32,102 bases of DNA from Lachnospiraceae bacterium. Lineage in GTDB: Bacteria > Bacillota > Clostridia > Lachnospirales > Lachnospiraceae. The notes below the pieces were generated by a model. The model saw nothing but the letters and a program-made list of their open reading frames with translations, searched no databases and had not been told where the DNA came from. The stretch covers positions 1 through 32,102 of the forward strand of contig JAFRZM010000015.1 of assembly GCA_017442585.1 (NCBI GenBank). Direction: 5' to 3'. This document shows positions 2,780 to 31,854 of the stretch, in pieces (positions within the stretch are counted from its first letter, which is position 1; each line of letters opens with the position of its first letter). The translations under genes and the position numbers were made by a program.

Positions 2780-2807
2780 ATTTCGGATGGTAGTTTTGCA
2801 ATCTTTA
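2780..2807 (-). promoter_or_regulatory. Candidate sigma28 (SigD/FliA-type) promoter
   Basis: On the minus strand TAAA (2807-2804) is followed after 16 bp by TCCGAAAT (2787-2780), close to the flagellar sigma consensus TAAA-N15-GCCGATAA/T. It lies 26 bp upstream of the start codon of the large left-end gene. The -35 element sits in a small perfect hairpin, AATCTTT-cgtt-AAAGATT (2817-2800). No good sigmaA promoter is visible in this 71-bp gap. Confidence 0.4.
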
Positions 2808-2825
2808 ACGAAAGATTTGTTAACT

Positions 2826-5351
2826 TTATTTTCTAAGATATGTTAAGAATACGTTGCCGGCGCTTTCGCACTGTTCACGCATATCGTCTATACGCATAAG
2901 CTTTGCAACGTTGTACTCAGGATCATAGTATAATATATCGCGGTTTGTATATCCGCAGAATACCACCGGCTTATCACCGTCTATAAGCGCATAAACAGGC
3001 GTGTTATTACTTATATAATAAAGCATCTGATCAACCGATGCTCCGGTAAGGTCTATGACATTCGCATCCTTAAGCGCATCATCAAGGACCTTCTTAACGC
3101 TTCTTCCACTTGATAAAAGCTCTCCTACGGAAAGGGTTATTCCCTCGTGCTGAAGCATTACCGTTACACAGCGTTCATTAAAGCCGGTACCTACGGTTTC
3201 CGAATCAACTCTCATGCCTGTAAGTCTATCCATATATCCGCTTTTAGCCTGCTGCCACACGTATCGTCCGTCTTCACCTATTACTACACCTGCTGCAGAT
3301 GCCGCTTTAAGTACGCAGTCTGCAACGCTTGTAGAAATTGCGGTTATATTGCCCTTGGCATATACATAGTAATACTTAATATTGCCCTGCTTTTCAAGAT
3401 CTATCTTGTTAATCTTATCGTTTTCTATAAGCTTTGCAGATAAAAGCGACGGATCCTTATCCTTTATATCAACTGTAGTCTTTATTATAACTATCTGCTG
3501 CTTAATTTCCGAATAAATAGCCGTTAATGACACTATTCCTGTTGCGTCACCTTTCATATCAACGATGCTGTCTTTCGCGATGGAAACGTATCTGTCATCA
3601 ACCTTTTCTTCACGGTCAAGCTTTATTGTATAATCTTCCGTAGTAATTCCCACTACGTATACATTATCTTTCTTGTATTCCTTTTTAACCTTATTGTCGT
3701 CGCCCATTATATATACTGCATACATAGGAAAATGCACTGCGGTCGAGATTCCCTCAGTAAGATCGTCTTCCTTTGCAATACCGTATATAAGATCGTGCTC
3801 TATAAAACCGAGCGGACGAATAAGCTCGTTTGCACCGGCTTTAATGGTAAAGCTTTTACCTGTTTCAAGATCCATAAAGCGTAAAGTCTTTCCCTCGTTT
3901 ACGCCGTCACCCTCTATAAATGCAAGGCGCTTTGAATCATTTGAAACCGCATACCACTGCTCACCTGCACCGCTCGATAAAATATCAAAATTTTTTGTAG
4001 TTAAATCTACGTCGTAAATATTGTTCTCGCATTTAATATAGAAATGATTAGAATCATTTACGAAGAGAACGTTTCCGACCATCTGCTCTATCATTCCGTA
4101 AGAACGTGTAAACGGAATATAAAGTATCTCTTCGCTTGCGTTTGCAATAGAATCATAATGATATACGGAAATTCCGACTTCTCCTTCGTGCGGACCGCGA
4201 TTTGCATATCCGTAAATGATAAAGTCCATACTTCCGGTCTCATCTACCTGAATTACGCGGATTGCATGCTCACCGTAGTTTTCACGCTCATCCAACTGCT
4301 CATATCCTCTATATGACCATACACAGGATAATGAATTATTAATTGTTGAATACTCCCAAAGGTCGCCTTCCTGTACGAACCCAATGATAGTACCGTTTTC
4401 GTTTGAAGCGTACCCGATTTTCTCAGGGTCTACGATACCGAGCCTTATCGAATTCTTACCAAAATTATTACCGTCTTCTCTGAATATCTGATTCATTGTT
4501 CGCTCGAAATTAAGAAGATACATACGCTTCTCGCCCCAGCGCACACGGTAATACTCCGTAACATTATAATACTCCGATTCGCCGTTTTCTCCGACTGCAC
4601 CAATCGAATACTCTATAGTAATAACCGAGTATTCGTTCTTTATTTCCTTGCAATTAACTCTGATGTCGGTTATCGGCTGTCCCTTAAATTCAGCAAAATA
4701 CAACTGCTTCATGGATGACTTTATCGTTACGAACTGAAGATTATCGTTCTTCATCGTATGATCCGACTCCATATAGATTGCAAGGTCTTTCTTCTTTTCT
4801 ATATTGAAGGTTTTATTATGAAAATCGACGCAGAAATTAATGCATTCTTTAGAATGCGTCTCGCCTGTAAGTATAAGTCTTGTGTAATAATATACATCTC
4901 TGCCGTCTGCCGTAAGCTTAAATATCACCTGATACTCTTCGCCTTCTTCGAGAAGGTTTTGAAGCTTAAGATCGGCCTTAATAGTCTTACCGTCTTCGGT
5001 AAATTTGTCCACTTTTGTATCTTCGATAAGTCTCGAACCGTCGATATTTCTTACTCTGTAACGTATCTCACTTATCTTGGCACCATACGTATTTATCGCT
5101 ATCGGAAGTACCATATTTGAAGATAACGGTGTTATCGTATCTCGCATATAGACCAGTTCCATCTGCTTCGTATAGCCAAAAAGCGTATTGATCTTCTGCC
5201 CGTTAGCATACATACTTACTGTAGGTAACGTGGCTTCGCTCATACGCTCTGTTCTGTCTTCGCCCGATTTACTTGCGAAAACTTCCATTATAAGAACACT
5301 CACTACGAAGATTGCGGTTAATATACCGACCTTCTTAAGCACTTTTCTCAT
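2826..5351 (-). CDS. Exported or membrane-anchored protein with C-terminal C39-like domain
   Basis: The 841-residue product begins with a basic start and one hydrophobic segment (about residues 9-25). This is an uncleaved anchor or a signal peptide ending at EVFA-S; there is no lipobox cysteine. The middle (about 250-600) has repeated beta-rich blades such as SKRLAFIEGDG followed by LRFMDLETGK, suggesting a beta-propeller facing outside. The last ~180 residues resemble a C39-like papain-fold domain: a cysteine in VADCVLKAAS, then PVYALIDG, FCGY and LYYDPEY near the end. The histidine normally placed before the GY motif is not visible, so activity is doubtful. The start lies 3 bp after the methyltransferase stop, making this the last gene of the ptb-buk operon. 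Function unknown. Confidence 0.8.
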   Translation of the reverse strand: MRKVLKKVGILTAIFVVSVLIMEVFASKSGEDRTERMSEATLPTVSMYANGQKINTLFGYTKQMELVYMRDTITPLSSNMVLPIAINTYGAKISEIRYRVRNIDGSRLIEDTKVDKFTEDGKTIKADLKLQNLLEEGEEYQVIFKLTADGRDVYYYTRLILTGETHSKECINFCVDFHNKTFNIEKKKDLAIYMESDHTMKNDNLQFVTIKSSMKQLYFAEFKGQPITDIRVNCKEIKNEYSVITIEYSIGAVGENGESEYYNVTEYYRVRWGEKRMYLLNFERTMNQIFREDGNNFGKNSIRLGIVDPEKIGYASNENGTIIGFVQEGDLWEYSTINNSLSCVWSYRGYEQLDERENYGEHAIRVIQVDETGSMDFIIYGYANRGPHEGEVGISVYHYDSIANASEEILYIPFTRSYGMIEQMVGNVLFVNDSNHFYIKCENNIYDVDLTTKNFDILSSGAGEQWYAVSNDSKRLAFIEGDGVNEGKTLRFMDLETGKSFTIKAGANELIRPLGFIEHDLIYGIAKEDDLTEGISTAVHFPMYAVYIMGDDNKVKKEYKKDNVYVVGITTEDYTIKLDREEKVDDRYVSIAKDSIVDMKGDATGIVSLTAIYSEIKQQIVIIKTTVDIKDKDPSLLSAKLIENDKINKIDLEKQGNIKYYYVYAKGNITAISTSVADCVLKAASAAGVVIGEDGRYVWQQAKSGYMDRLTGMRVDSETVGTGFNERCVTVMLQHEGITLSVGELLSSGRSVKKVLDDALKDANVIDLTGASVDQMLYYISNNTPVYALIDGDKPVVFCGYTNRDILYYDPEYNVAKLMRIDDMREQCESAGNVFLTYLRK

Positions 5352-5354
5352 TTA

Positions 5355-5714
5355 TCATTCCCCATCAAATAACCTAGGTAAAAGTGGCTTAACTCCAAGG
5401 AATTTAATCGCCTCTTCTACTGTAGGGTCATTATCGTTTTTAATTTCAATCTTTTTATGGCGCGTTTTCACCGCACGAATAAGGATATTCTTCGGTGTAT
5501 GCTCCATATCTATAAACTCAAGTAACTGCACGGCGTAACCTTGTGCCTTTAAACTCTCCGCTCTTATCGCATCAGTAAAAAGCGCACATGTGCGTTCTCT
5601 TATTATACCATAGGAAAAAAGGGATGATAAATCATTTTTTTCTTTACTTTTTCCCATAGCTGTATTCATCTCATGCTGGCAGCAAGGAACGGATAAAATT
5701 ACACTCGCGCCCAA
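5355..5714 (-). pseudogene. C-terminal piece of frameshifted SAM-dependent methyltransferase
   Basis: This frame carries the rest of the methyltransferase whose first 284 residues lie in the next frame upstream. It opens at a TTG (5712-5714) overlapping the end of the first piece and reads GASVILSVPCCQHEMN, the conserved block expected directly after the upstream ALYKAVNW. About 118 residues follow, with no further lesion. Adding one G to the GGG at 5710-5712 fuses the two frames into one protein of about 402 residues. Either the base was lost in this strain, or it is a sequencing error at a short G run, or the ribosome slips there. It could be translated separately from the TTG, but it would lack the cofactor site. 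Confidence 0.75.
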
Positions 5715-6562
5715 TTTACCGCCTTATATAATGCATAATCTGTCGCGGTATCGCACGCATGAAGGGTTACAACCATATCTACGGAAGTTACACCCTCATA
5801 ATCTTTGATATCGCCGACTAAGAATTTAAGCTTATCAAATCCATATTTTACGGCAAGCTTATTGCATTTATCTATAACATCTTCCTTTAAATCAAGACCT
5901 ATCATGTTAAGCTTAAAATCATTTAAAACATGAAGGTAATAATATATTGCAAAAGTAAGATATGATTTTCCGCATCCGAAATCAATAATCGTAAGTTCCT
6001 TGTCCTTAGGTAATTCCGGAATTATATCCCTTATGAATTCAAGGAACCTGTTTATCTGTTTATATTTATCATACATCTTATCCCTGATTTTACCTTCGGT
6101 AGTCATAACACCAAGGTCTATCAAAAACTCTACCGGTGTTCCCTCAGGAATAAGATATTTCTTTTCTTTATTATGTGTTAACTGTGGCTTTGCATCATCG
6201 CAATTTTCACAGTTTGAAGCCGCATCTTTCTTACTGCTGTTAGCTTTCTTCTTTAACTTTAAAGTTACTTTGCCCTTTTTACTTATGAGGCAATTTAAGG
6301 TTACTTCACTATGGTCTAGTTCCAACTGCTTAAACTCTTCCATAAGCTTAAGGATTTTTTCGACTGCATCTTCTTTTATGAGATTTTCATGAAATGCCTG
6401 CTTTTCCGTGAAAGATTCAAACTGAAAATATACTTTTTCACGTAGCAGAATTGGGCGGATGTGAATTTTCTTCACTCCGCCCTTCTCTTTACTATTACTT
6501 ATAGTGATCTTATTAAGTTTTTCCGACAGATAATCTGTAAGATACTTCCTTAAATCATCCAT
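5699..6562 (-). pseudogene. N-terminal piece of frameshifted SAM-dependent methyltransferase (Methyltransf_32-like)
   Basis: This piece has 287 codons, of which the first 284 match a class I methyltransferase. An N-terminal domain of about 130 residues with a Lys-rich link precedes the Rossmann domain. The cofactor motif is IDFGCGKSYLTFA, motif II is GLDLKED, and motif IV is VTLHACDTATDYAL. This pattern fits the PF13679 (METTL25/RRNAD1-related) group, whose bacterial members may act on RNA; the substrate here is unknown. After KAVNW the frame runs into ARV and a stop, while the conserved GASVILSVPCC continues in the +1 frame, so a G is missing at 5710-5712. The start uses AAGGAAT, 10 bp after the buk stop, and the gene is part of the same operon. 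Confidence 0.8.
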
Positions 6563-29620: not shown

Positions 29621-30325
29621 TTATATCAAAATACCCTCGGTTTCATACGGTATGCGGTTGGCTATTTTACCTTCTTTTACGTAAAATGCTCCGCCAATCG
29701 ATACAGGGTCGTCACTTAAGGAATTAATGATATATGCCTCTTTTGCGGCAAGGTCCGCCTGTTCTGCATACTCATGCTCGTATTCTCCCAATCCTTTTTT
29801 GTCGAAGTTTACATATATCGGCCAGATTAAGGTTCCGTCTGTCTTAAAACGCTCTGGGAAGTCCCAAAGGTCACCGCATAAAGCGATGTTGAGCTTTTCG
29901 CCTTTATAAAGAAATTCTTTTGTCTCGGTTCCTTCTTTATAATGCTCGCCCGCAATCGGCTCTTTCCATCCCTTGGATATTCTTCTGTAGTTATGTAAGA
30001 CTTTTCCGCTTTCTATTACGACGCATGAGGAATATAAATCCTCTCCGCAAAGTTCCACGTATCCAAGTAAAAGGTCTGTCTTATACGTAACCGTAAGCGC
30101 TGCTATACGATTCATTGTTTCCGAATGCAAGGATATAGCAACTTCCTTGTCGTGCTCGTAATTCCAATTCAATGAATCAAAGCCCTGCAAAAACGTCTCT
30201 CCAAAGCATACTAAATCTGCCTTCCCTGCTGCCTCTTTCAAAACTTTCTCGATTTTTCCTATATTATACTCTATATCATTATTGATAAACTTATACGCCG
30301 CAAGGGCTATTCTTACCTTACTCAT
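29621..30325 (-). CDS. Carbon-nitrogen hydrolase (nitrilase superfamily)
   Basis: The 234-residue enzyme has the nitrilase triad: E43 in FGETFLQGFD, K118 in YRRISKGW and C150 in ALCGDLWDFPE. It would hydrolyse a C-N bond of an amide or carbamoyl substrate that cannot be named from sequence. It is shorter than the usual 260-280 residues, with a compressed C-terminal part. Of two in-frame ATGs I chose the second (30323-30325), which lies seven bases after GGAGG; the first is only a base or two from it. Its start lies just past the GNAT stop, so both are translated from one mRNA under the structured leader at 31075-31212. Confidence 0.85.
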   Translation of the reverse strand: MSKVRIALAAYKFINNDIEYNIGKIEKVLKEAAGKADLVCFGETFLQGFDSLNWNYEHDKEVAISLHSETMNRIAALTVTYKTDLLLGYVELCGEDLYSSCVVIESGKVLHNYRRISKGWKEPIAGEHYKEGTETKEFLYKGEKLNIALCGDLWDFPERFKTDGTLIWPIYVNFDKKGLGEYEHEYAEQADLAAKEAYIINSLSDDPVSIGGAFYVKEGKIANRIPYETEGILI

Positions 30326-30327
30326 TC

Positions 30328-31071
30328 TCATTCCTCCAAAATATATGCTAATCCATAATCCTTATACCCTATATGTTTTGATAGATTATATGATGCCTCA
30401 TTTTTTACCGTGCACTCCCACTGCGGGCAAACACCAATCTCTATAAGATGATGTGCTGCATAAGCTGCTGCATTCGTTGCATATCCTTTTCTTCGCTCGC
30501 TCTTAAGTGTCATAATACCTGTGTGCTGTATCATATCTTCCATAAACGGAACGTCCGGCGCATCACATACTGCAAGAAGTTTGCCATTATCAACTACACC
30601 CACAAAGTACTCTTTAGCAGCTTTTTCCTCAAAGTATTCCTGAAGCCACCCTGTCGGATCTGCCTCCGGCTCTGTTATTCTGAAGAACTCCTCATACATA
30701 GGGTAATCTTCTGCCTTTAAAACTCTTGCTTTTCCATAATCAGTTATTATTTCTCCACCGAATATCATATAATGCATTTGTAAGAGTTTATACTTATCTG
30801 AAACTGCCCTTATAATTGTATCCTTATCTTGCCCTTTTAAAGTTTCGATAAAGCCTGCATGCTTTGGCGAATATACAACTATTAAGGCCTCACCTTTTAC
30901 AAAAATAATAATTGTATACTTTGCTCCAAGACCTTTTACCTCTTTATCTCGTTCCTCGCTGCAAACGAAATGTATTCCGTCACTTATGCCTTTAAGCTCT
31001 GTTCCTATAAGTTTTGAATAAAACTCCTCCGTTATTTCGTATATCTCTTTGTTTGTTAATGCTTTTCTCAT
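30328..31071 (-). CDS. GNAT family N-acetyltransferase
   Basis: The 247-residue protein has a divergent N-terminal half (about 1-115) and a C-terminal GNAT domain. The domain has GVVDNGKLLAVCDAP as central strands, ERRKGYATNAAAYAAHHLIE with the R/K-x-x-G-x-A acetyl-CoA loop (about 195-215), and VKNEASYNLSKHIGY near the end. The two-part layout is like the ZmaR-related acetyltransferase group. The substrate is unknown. Start ATG at 31069-31071. The AAGGAGG site ten bases before it is part of a hairpin followed by TTTTTT, so both transcription and translation of this gene look controlled by its leader. It is followed at once by the nitrilase gene, which suggests one pathway. Confidence 0.88.
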   Translation of the reverse strand: MRKALTNKEIYEITEEFYSKLIGTELKGISDGIHFVCSEERDKEVKGLGAKYTIIIFVKGEALIVVYSPKHAGFIETLKGQDKDTIIRAVSDKYKLLQMHYMIFGGEIITDYGKARVLKAEDYPMYEEFFRITEPEADPTGWLQEYFEEKAAKEYFVGVVDNGKLLAVCDAPDVPFMEDMIQHTGIMTLKSERRKGYATNAAAYAAHHLIEIGVCPQWECTVKNEASYNLSKHIGYKDYGLAYILEE

Positions 31072-31074
31072 AAT

Positions 31075-31212
31075 AAAAAAGCCTCCTTGTCTTGCAAGAA
31101 GGATTATCTAACTACCACAAAATAGAGGCACTATATGCCTTAAGAAAAATATCAGATAATCCTACGCAAAATAAGCCCTGATATGGGCTACCAACCGTTA
31201 CTGTTTTTGCAT
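31075..31212 (-). ncRNA. Candidate riboswitch-like leader RNA of the GNAT-nitrilase operon
   Basis: On the minus strand, 5' to 3': ATGCAAAA (31212-31205) can pair with TTTTGCGT (31171-31164), enclosing the hairpin AGCCC-AUAUCA-GGGCU (31189-31174). GGATTATCT (31162-31154) pairs perfectly with AGATAATCC (31109-31101), enclosing the hairpin AGGCA-N5-TGCCT (31140-31126). The loop AUAUCA (31184-31179) is complementary to UGAUAU (31154-31149), a pseudoknot. A terminator-like hairpin CCTTCTTG/CAAGGAGG (31102-31095 with 31089-31082) with TTTTTT (31080-31075) shares the two bases 31102-31101 with the 9-bp helix and contains the ribosome binding site. I match it to no known riboswitch class. Confidence 0.6.
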
Positions 31213-31270
31213 AAAACTATCTTCTGATCAATTTCTCTTTCACACTTACCCTTTCGGTTTTGTCACCTTT

Positions 31271-31299
31271 AGATTAACAGTTTAGCATAAATTTGTCAA
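31271..31299 (-). promoter_or_regulatory. Candidate promoter for the leader RNA and GNAT-nitrilase operon
   Basis: A perfect -35 TTGACA (31299-31294) lies inside the last codons of the upstream gene, with a 17-bp spacer to a weak -10 TAATCT (31276-31271). Transcription would start near 31263 and give a leader of about 190 nt before the GNAT start codon. Confidence 0.4.
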
Positions 31300-31854
31300 T
31301 GCAACTTCCGGTATCTCTATATCCGGTAGGTCTACAGCTACTTCTGCGTTATTGGCCATTTCTATAGGATCAGTTGTTTCCGGCACTTCCTCGTCTTCCC
31401 ACAGTGACTTATGTTTCTTACGCTCTTCGTTTTGTGCCATAGCCTGCATATTCTTCGCCATCTGGTACATCTTCCAATCGTACTCCATAAGCTTCTTTTC
31501 ATCCGATGCAGGCACTATATCACCCGCTGCAAGGCGCCTAAATACAGTTATGACCTTGCCTAAATCTTCCGCTTCCTTTGCCATAGCGTCGCCCTGCTGC
31601 TTAGCAGACTCCATATTTGCGATACTCATCCACAGCTCACCGATATTATCAAGCACTTCCTGATTCTTTATAAATGCATCTTCCGTTTTTTGCAACGAAA
31701 GCGTAAGCGTCGCGGCTTCCTCTTGGAATTTCGTATCTCCCGTTTCTTTAAACTTATTCTCCGCCGCGGTCTTTTGTGCACTTAACGTCTTCTTATTATC
31801 GCAAAGCTGCTGCCTATTCTGATAATATATAGCCCTTGCATCCGCTATCTTCAT
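31282..31854 (-). CDS. Helical cytoplasmic protein of unknown function, possibly motility-associated
   Basis: The 190-residue protein has no signal peptide or membrane segment. It is helical with coiled-coil stretches (about residues 10-80), a conserved-looking central block RRLAAGDIVPASDEKKLMEYDWKMY split by a turn, and an acidic tail ending in a lone cysteine. I recall similar proteins in Lachnospiraceae but no function for them. The ATG at 31852-31854 has AGGGAGG upstream. A sigma28-like promoter 88 bp upstream suggests expression with motility genes; a FliJ-like chaperone role is possible but unproven. The gene stands alone: the next transcript appears to start inside its 3' end. Confidence 0.75.
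   Translation of the reverse strand: MKIADARAIYYQNRQQLCDNKKTLSAQKTAAENKFKETGDTKFQEEAATLTLSLQKTEDAFIKNQEVLDNIGELWMSIANMESAKQQGDAMAKEAEDLGKVITVFRRLAAGDIVPASDEKKLMEYDWKMYQMAKNMQAMAQNEERKKHKSLWEDEEVPETTDPIEMANNAEVAVDLPDIEIPEVALTNLC

Follow-up and report, generated by a model that had tools for sequence, protein, structure and literature searches.

The window analysed here was the whole stretch of 32,102 nucleotides from a Lachnospiraceae bacterium, and the locus under study lay near its end on the minus strand. A gene for a GNAT acetyltransferase of 247 aa (30328..31071; Pfam PF12746 and PF00583) was followed by a gene for a carbon-nitrogen hydrolase of the nitrilase family (29621..30331; Pfam PF00795), which overlapped the GNAT gene by 4 bases. 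Behind the nitrilase gene, on the same strand, two overlapping genes lay at positions 29592-26483, one for a helix-turn-helix protein (TPR match below threshold) and one for an ABC exporter; both may be part of the GNAT-nitrilase operon. On the other side, upstream of the leader and on the same strand, positions 31282-31854 held an open frame of 190 aa with no Pfam match.

The leader in front of the GNAT gene was mapped from its 5' end to the start codon, all features being on the minus strand. A -35-like TTGACA (31294..31299) and, 17 nt downstream of it, a candidate -10 element TAATCT (31276-31271) were read by eye; the latter matched the consensus at only 3 of 6 positions, and the possible promoter was therefore absent from the feature scan list. 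A Shine-Dalgarno sequence GAAAGGG (31249..31255), recognised as sequence shared between leaders, preceded a short reading frame at 31217..31243 (GUG AAA GAG AAA UUG AUC AGA AGA UAG, MKEKLIRR-stop). Segment 1 (31205..31222) comprised the last codon of this frame, its stop codon (31219-31217) and the next bases. Segment 2 occupied 31151..31171 and segment 3 31100..31112. A hairpin of the form AGCCC-AUAUCA-GGGCU followed by UAUUUUG (31174..31189) was located by the scan within the stem formed by segments 1 and 2, and a second one, AGGCA..UGCCU (31126..31140), in the loop of the helix formed by segments 2 and 3. Together with the U-rich stretches, these two small hairpins may be candidate RNA-polymerase pause sites, by analogy with vmlR. 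The 3:4 hairpin (31082..31102) was predicted as an intrinsic terminator, with a tract of six U (31075..31080, seen in the sequence and in the scan) directly before the start codon, and its 3' arm contained the ribosome-binding site AAGGAGG of the acetyltransferase gene (31088-31082). Another mini-frame, AUG CAA AAA CAG UAA (31212-31198), was considered and rejected, since it had no Shine-Dalgarno sequence and was missing in the second copy of the leader described below.

The segments could pair in three ways. Positions 31222-31205 formed a long helix with 31171-31154, the OFF pairing or anti-antiterminator, which largely used the strand of a second helix between 31163-31151 and 31112-31100. 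This second helix, the antiterminator, had been noticed in the initial annotation as a perfect closing helix of 9 bp; it had in fact 13 contiguous pairs, two of them G-U, around that 9-bp core. It overlapped the 3:4 hairpin at 31102-31100, so that the two structures were mutually exclusive, and the pairings 1:2, 2:3 and 3:4 thus each excluded their neighbour, which is the classical plan of an attenuator. The competition between closing helix and hairpin, the terminator-like hairpin hiding the ribosome-binding site (also listed by the scan) and the small nested hairpins had all been described in the initial annotation and were found again. Two features that explain the leader had been missed there, as they lay partly or wholly upstream of position 31212: the short frame with its Shine-Dalgarno sequence, and the helix 31222-31205/31171-31154. 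The pseudoknot proposed between AUAUCA and UGAUAU was a matter of complementarity only and was treated as unsupported; the corresponding loop of the second copy read GAUUAAU, with which that register no longer paired (by eye), and the UGAU of the pseudoknot strand was consumed by the full-length closing helix.

Folding predictions agreed with this plan. The predicted fold of the full leader consisted of the 1:2 helix and the terminator. When segment 1 was removed, as if it were covered by a ribosome, the 2:3 helix was predicted and the terminator hairpin was lost. The second copy showed the same behaviour, removal of segment 1 again giving the 2:3 helix, except that an inserted hairpin and a few 3:4 pairs stayed in the minimum free energy (MFE) structure, these leftover pairs covering part of the ribosome-binding site. 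A hairpin in the 2:3 loop persisted in the predicted folds of both copies without segment 1. The MFE of the leader was -44.1 kcal/mol, against -33.0 (sd 3.4) kcal/mol for dinucleotide shuffles, none of 200 of which was equally stable.

The second copy of the leader was found in the same genome on contig C28 (1074-1154; 71% identity over 83 query bases). Aligned from the end of the frame to segment 3, the two copies shared 79 of 122 aligned bases (142 columns). Both started with GAAAGGRUAAGU-GUG followed by a short frame, that of the second copy being MTAMLMKIR-stop in the corresponding position, and the genes behind both copies had AGAAAA in common after the start codon; the shared sequence thus entered the first codons. 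The gene behind the second copy encoded a ribosomal-protection ABC-F protein (NCBIfam NF000355, 477 bits at a cut-off of 380). Its best match among solved structures was 7nhl, a lincosamide-streptogramin A resistance protein, and other near solved chains were 5zlu (macrolide efflux protein) and 7nhn (Lmo0919). The ABC-F gene was immediately followed by genes for a radical-SAM protein and an ABC transporter (positions 2793-5945 of the extracted locus L003 on C28); this stretch could be a small peptide-natural-product neighbourhood.

Relatives of the leader were sought in several ways. When the two copies were combined into a covariance model, this model found no third copy in the genome of the window at E up to 10 and, with stricter filters, no match in 183 other genomes, including six from the same genus. 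Among the loci searched, the leader of locus L019 was the sole other leader matched, weakly (E 0.099); a match in locus L041 lay off the leader of that locus and was not counted. A search with the leader DNA in 150 genomes of the family recovered the two copies and seven further matches; the latter spanned 20-32 bases and, when read, were all put down to chance. The search within the genus (7 genomes, including that of the window) returned the two copies only, and no leader match was found in the plasmid records. The block GAAAGGRYWASTGTGA at the Shine-Dalgarno sequence was common to the window, the second copy and the leaders of the ABC-F genes L017, L018 and L019. As a pattern in 397 genomes, GAAAGGRYWASTGTGA gave 16 matches, of which five were these leaders and 11 were judged chance; the reversed control pattern gave 13. 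This search, which did not start from the ABC-F protein, added three leaders, all before ABC-F genes, to the two copies, and no leader before a non-ABC-F gene was among the 16 matches except that of the window itself.

The remaining relatives were collected through the ABC-F protein. Homologues were matched in 15 of 250 genomes of the family at 1e-80 and in 17 of 344 genomes of the order at 1e-100, the genome of the window being included in both counts. After L040 and L042 were dropped because of contig ends, 29 upstream regions were left, which gave 31 leaders together with the window and the second copy; since most of them were found via the ABC-F protein, the gene content of most relatives is not independent. 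Seven leaders had the closest plan (window, second copy, L017, L018, L019, L028, and L035). In six of these seven, the helix search placed a 1:2 helix across the stop codon of the frame; L028 exceeded the searched stretch, and its segments were read by eye and their order confirmed. Three further ABC-F leaders (L034, L036, and L037) had a very long 1:2 stem with arms of 25 nt and a differing 3' half, and are possibly another leader subtype.

The three-helix architecture was scored as the sum of the three helices and set against 300 dinucleotide shuffles of each leader, on hand-set stretches of 185-310 nt. In 15 of the 31 leaders, including the window and the second copy, no shuffle reached the score, and in 21 of the 31 at most 4 of the 300 did. 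No clear signal was obtained for L018 (7/300), L020, L021, L024, L025, L027, L028, L029, L030, and L038; the leader of L028 was longer than the 250 nt scored in this test. The triple of helices with the best score lay away from the frame in some leaders, e.g., L023 and L026.

Covariation was investigated by exchanging partners between leaders. For the named segments of 12 leaders, duplex energies were better with the own than with exchanged partners in both the 1:2 and the 2:3 pairing, and 0 of 20,000 permutations did as well; the 1:3 pairing, which was not expected to form, showed no effect (16,885/20,000). As these first segments had been chosen by their pairing, the test was repeated with fixed segments. 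In this region-level test, the stop codon and the distance from the gene start defined the segments (the offset of the second copy alone was set by hand), and these were paired with the middle region as a whole; the test covered 19 of the 31 leaders, six near-duplicates and six leaders without clear frame or plan being left out. Own partners again won: for neither helix did any of the 20,000 permutations reach the observed value. When the test was restricted to the close group of seven, 2 and 11 of 20,000 permutations did so, where the unpermuted order alone would give about 4. The own partner was the single best one for segment 1 in 12 of 19 leaders and for segment 3 in 5 of 19 (3 of the 7 close leaders), so much of the 2:3 signal is common to the leaders. 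A table of pairs covering six close leaders (L018 was left out because of a bulge) contained compensatory changes from U-A to C-G, from G-C to A-U and from U-A to A-U; 3 of 72 table cells for the 2:3 helix and 7 of 70 for the 1:2 helix did not pair.

The short frames of the close leaders were MIDLIIR in L017 and L035, MKDMIIR in L018, MNIW in L019 (read by eye, as the Shine-Dalgarno filter gives MNR there), and MIIW in L028. Five of the seven close frames ended in Arg (AGA, AGG or CGG) and two in Trp (UGG); the Arg-stop ending stood in matching position in the window, the second copy, L017, L018, and L035. These Arg and Trp codons were within segment 1, and segment 2 varied to match them, partly via G-U pairs. 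Among distant leaders the frames were MIIR, MKIR, MRIK, MFIW, MIIL, and MKL; the frames MRM, MKR, MKIN, and MFN were read by eye and entered the region-level test. MIIR-stop was the frame of the ABC-F leaders L033, L034, L036, and L037. The macrolide arrest motif is described as Arg/Lys-X-Arg/Lys in PMC10314930. Lys-Ile-Arg of the second copy fits this motif, whereas IRR of the window does not, and therefore no drug class is claimed here.

Judged by the frame, the three competing helices with their covariation, and the second copy before an ABC-F gene, the leader is very probably a ribosome-mediated attenuator of the ABC-F type (CplR, VmlR), which drives a GNAT-nitrilase operon in the window. 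We infer that the frame is translated, that ribosomes stall on it in response to an inducer and that the operon acts against the same stress. When ribosomes do not stall, they would complete the frame of nine codons (eight residues and the stop), the 1:2 helix would form, and so would the 3:4 hairpin. This hairpin would end transcription just before the start of the acetyltransferase gene and mask its ribosome-binding site, and the operon would be off. A ribosome stalled on the frame, most probably by a ribosome-targeting antibiotic, would cover segment 1; the 2:3 helix could then form and block the 3:4 hairpin, and the operon would be transcribed and translated. Unlike that of the second copy, the gene regulated in the window is not an ABC-F gene; this is no bar to the mechanism, since ABC-F genes are only the typical targets and hflXr is a known exception.

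The products of the operon were examined for their substrates. The GNAT protein had a weak NCBIfam match to kasugamycin acetyltransferase AAC(2')-IIb (E 1.4e-5; 24.4 bits at a cut-off of 390), and a search by sequence against solved structures gave no match at E up to 0.01. Its predicted model, made from five sequences, had a moderate mean pLDDT of 74, and the structure search with it returned generic GNAT matches only (best 3iwg, E 3.8e-4, TM 0.37), so the substrate cannot be named. The nitrilase matched NAD+ synthase best (E 6.3e-11) and N-carbamoylputrescine amidase at E 2.4e-7, all of its matches being far below cut-off. PF12746 may be linked to ZmaR, a protein of zwittermicin resistance. 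PamZ shares 31% identity with ZmaR and acetylates a ribosome inhibitor (PMC9054821). At most, it can be stated that the GNAT gene is regulated in the manner of a resistance gene. Tentatively, and with the odds somewhat against it, the GNAT-nitrilase pair might be an inducible detoxification system against a ribosome-targeting natural product, under a leader copied from an ABC-F gene; the same stalled ribosome would then turn on target protection by ABC-F and drug modification by acetylation and by amide or nitrile hydrolysis.

Five close orthologues of the GNAT protein (49-59% identity; L012-L015 and L032) were found, four from the genome contigs searched and one from 249 other genomes of the family (E up to 1e-20); the search of 391 other genomes of the order gave no close one and three with 31-35% identity. 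In none of the five was the leader found when the upstream regions were read. A run of five U was also missing from the last 15 bases ahead of each start, and the two-copy model matched none of them at E up to 1. A nitrilase gene adjoined the GNAT gene in three of the five, in reversed order compared with the window; in L012 it lay directly upstream and its product was 50% identical to the nitrilase of the window, in L013 and L015 the sequence upstream looked like a nitrilase by eye, and in L014 no nitrilase lay directly upstream. In L032, an ABC exporter gene stood before the GNAT gene, its product having 32% identity over 326 residues to the exporter in the gene row of the window. As the five relatives had no leader and the leader goes with ABC-F genes, this lineage probably acquired it before the GNAT-nitrilase operon as a copy from an ABC-F gene. 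The initial annotation had proposed that the leader be looked for before orthologous operons and that its helices be examined for covariation; the leader was absent from the orthologous GNAT genes, and covariation of the pairing segments was present among the ABC-F leaders.

Four other readings of the leader were weighed against a ribosome-mediated attenuator. The initial annotation had proposed a metabolite-binding riboswitch of a new class, and the competing helices, the terminator and the lack of an Rfam match would all suit one. The window indeed had no Rfam match at gathering score, as the initial annotation had stated for ten known riboswitch classes, and a search of 31000-31290 at E up to 10 gave six chance-level hits (best E 1.1), far below the gathering scores. 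The two copies before different genes could also form the regulon of one ligand, and the sequence shared by the copies does extend through the middle of the leader. Against this, leaders of the same plan kept the frame and the three alternating segments while the stretch from the frame to segment 3 varied between 71 and 420 nt across 19 leaders. No conserved aptamer core was found among these 19, and the range of lengths disfavours an aptamer, as does the pseudoknot that was not kept in the second copy. A new riboswitch class is thus very improbable. The regulatory nature of the element, with mutually exclusive folds in which the closing helix is the ON and the hairpin the OFF state, was borne out; the metabolite-binding, pseudoknotted aptamer was not. 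The relatives of the leader stand before ribosome-protection ABC-F genes, and the leaders already known from such genes respond to stalled ribosomes. Most likely, the leader is a switch that senses ribosomes rather than a metabolite riboswitch. The simplest reading, a plain terminator between the gene of 190 aa and the GNAT operon with chance secondary structure, would account for the terminator-like hairpin with its six U and for the upstream gene being on the same strand. It is extremely improbable given that no shuffle reached the three-helix score, that the sequence shared with the second copy runs into the first codons, and that the segments covary.

The other two readings also involve the ribosome. 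An attenuator in which the terminal Arg codons sense a shortage of arginine or of its charged tRNA would fit the two AGA codons at the end of the window frame and the Arg ending of most close frames; it is hardly likely, as the other close frames end in Trp, frames elsewhere end in Lys, Leu, Met or Asn, and the gene of the second copy encodes an ABC-F protein, not one of arginine metabolism. On the amino-acid side, a general starvation input is possible. As a variant of the preferred ribosome-mediated attenuator, and not exclusive of it, the leader might respond to ribosome stalling of whatever cause (drugs of several classes, starvation, polyamines), with the GNAT-nitrilase pair handling a cellular amine and not a drug. 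The weak match of the nitrilase to N-carbamoylputrescine amidase would fit this, and toiL of E. coli is described as responding to at least 5 ribosome-targeting antibiotics (PMC12121999). The homologous leaders collected here otherwise precede ribosome-protection factors, and this variant is rather unlikely.

A ribosome-mediated attenuator of the ABC-F type was compared with known systems as these are described in the cited papers. The cplR leader of C. difficile has the plan with a terminator at the gene start that hides the ribosome-binding site, which was tested by mutation, and mutating the start of the frame left a reporter inactive (PMC10201436). Like the window, cplR (an ARE1 ABC-F gene) has a short frame (MRI) in a 5' hairpin and a 3' terminator stem that masks the ribosome-binding site of the gene, with termination at the start codon and with transcription and translation attenuation combined; unlike the window, its target is an ABC-F gene and its frame is MR[I/M] (PMC10201436). 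The likeness to cplR is one of description, the closest leaders examined being L041, L043, and L049 (MRM, by eye). The frame of the window starts with GUG and ends in RR-stop, whereas cplR, vmlR, and lsaA have AUG frames of three or four residues (PMC10201436). In vmlR of Bacillus subtilis, as in the window, the frame lies in the anti-antiterminator stem, followed by antiterminator and terminator, with a hidden ribosome-binding site and a pause hairpin (a candidate one in the window); in contrast, its frame is MIN, its terminator and ribosome-binding-site hairpins are separate, and its target is ABC-F (PMC9226507). For msrD, the short peptide MYLIFM stalls the ribosome at the stop codon and blocks the terminator, as in the model proposed here, with a different leader peptide (PMC10314930). 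Two ABC-F genes of the same bacterial family had MsrD-type leader peptides, MYLIFM in L029 and MYYIFI in L030, and the three-segment plan was not recovered in them.

YjhQ, encoded in the toiL-topAI-yjhQ operon of E. coli, is a GNAT protein. The word acetyltransferase is absent from PMC12121999. According to this paper, a stall anywhere in the short frame of toiL exposes a hidden ribosome-binding site and the operon is without a known drug target, both as in the window, and the likeness is again one of description; unlike the window, termination is Rho-dependent (PMC12121999). Stalls at different codons suffice there, and an amino acid or polyamine is left by the authors as a possible natural signal (PMC12121999). 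The rli80-hflXr leader of Listeria resembles that of the window in being a short-frame attenuator with a resistance target other than ABC-F, and differs in its frame of 14 residues with an RLR motif and in its target, a homologue of a ribosome-splitting factor (PMC6310831). In the portions of the open-licence literature consulted (including PMC10201436, PMC9226507, PMC10314930, PMC6310831, PMC12121999, PMC9054821, and PMC10219788), no GNAT-nitrilase operon under such a leader was found, and the words MIIR and MIIW were absent among the literature matches listed. The kind of switch is already known, and its placement before a GNAT-nitrilase operon was not met in the open-licence literature.

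Leaders of this kind are normally found before genes whose products counter the very stress that the leader detects. With such a leader in front of them and its twin before a ribosome-protection gene, the GNAT and nitrilase proteins become candidates for acting against ribosome inhibitors, and the leader would offer a direct route to the inducer. For the search for new riboswitches, the result would mean one candidate fewer among the orphans. The case also suggests how such a switch gets duplicated and re-used.
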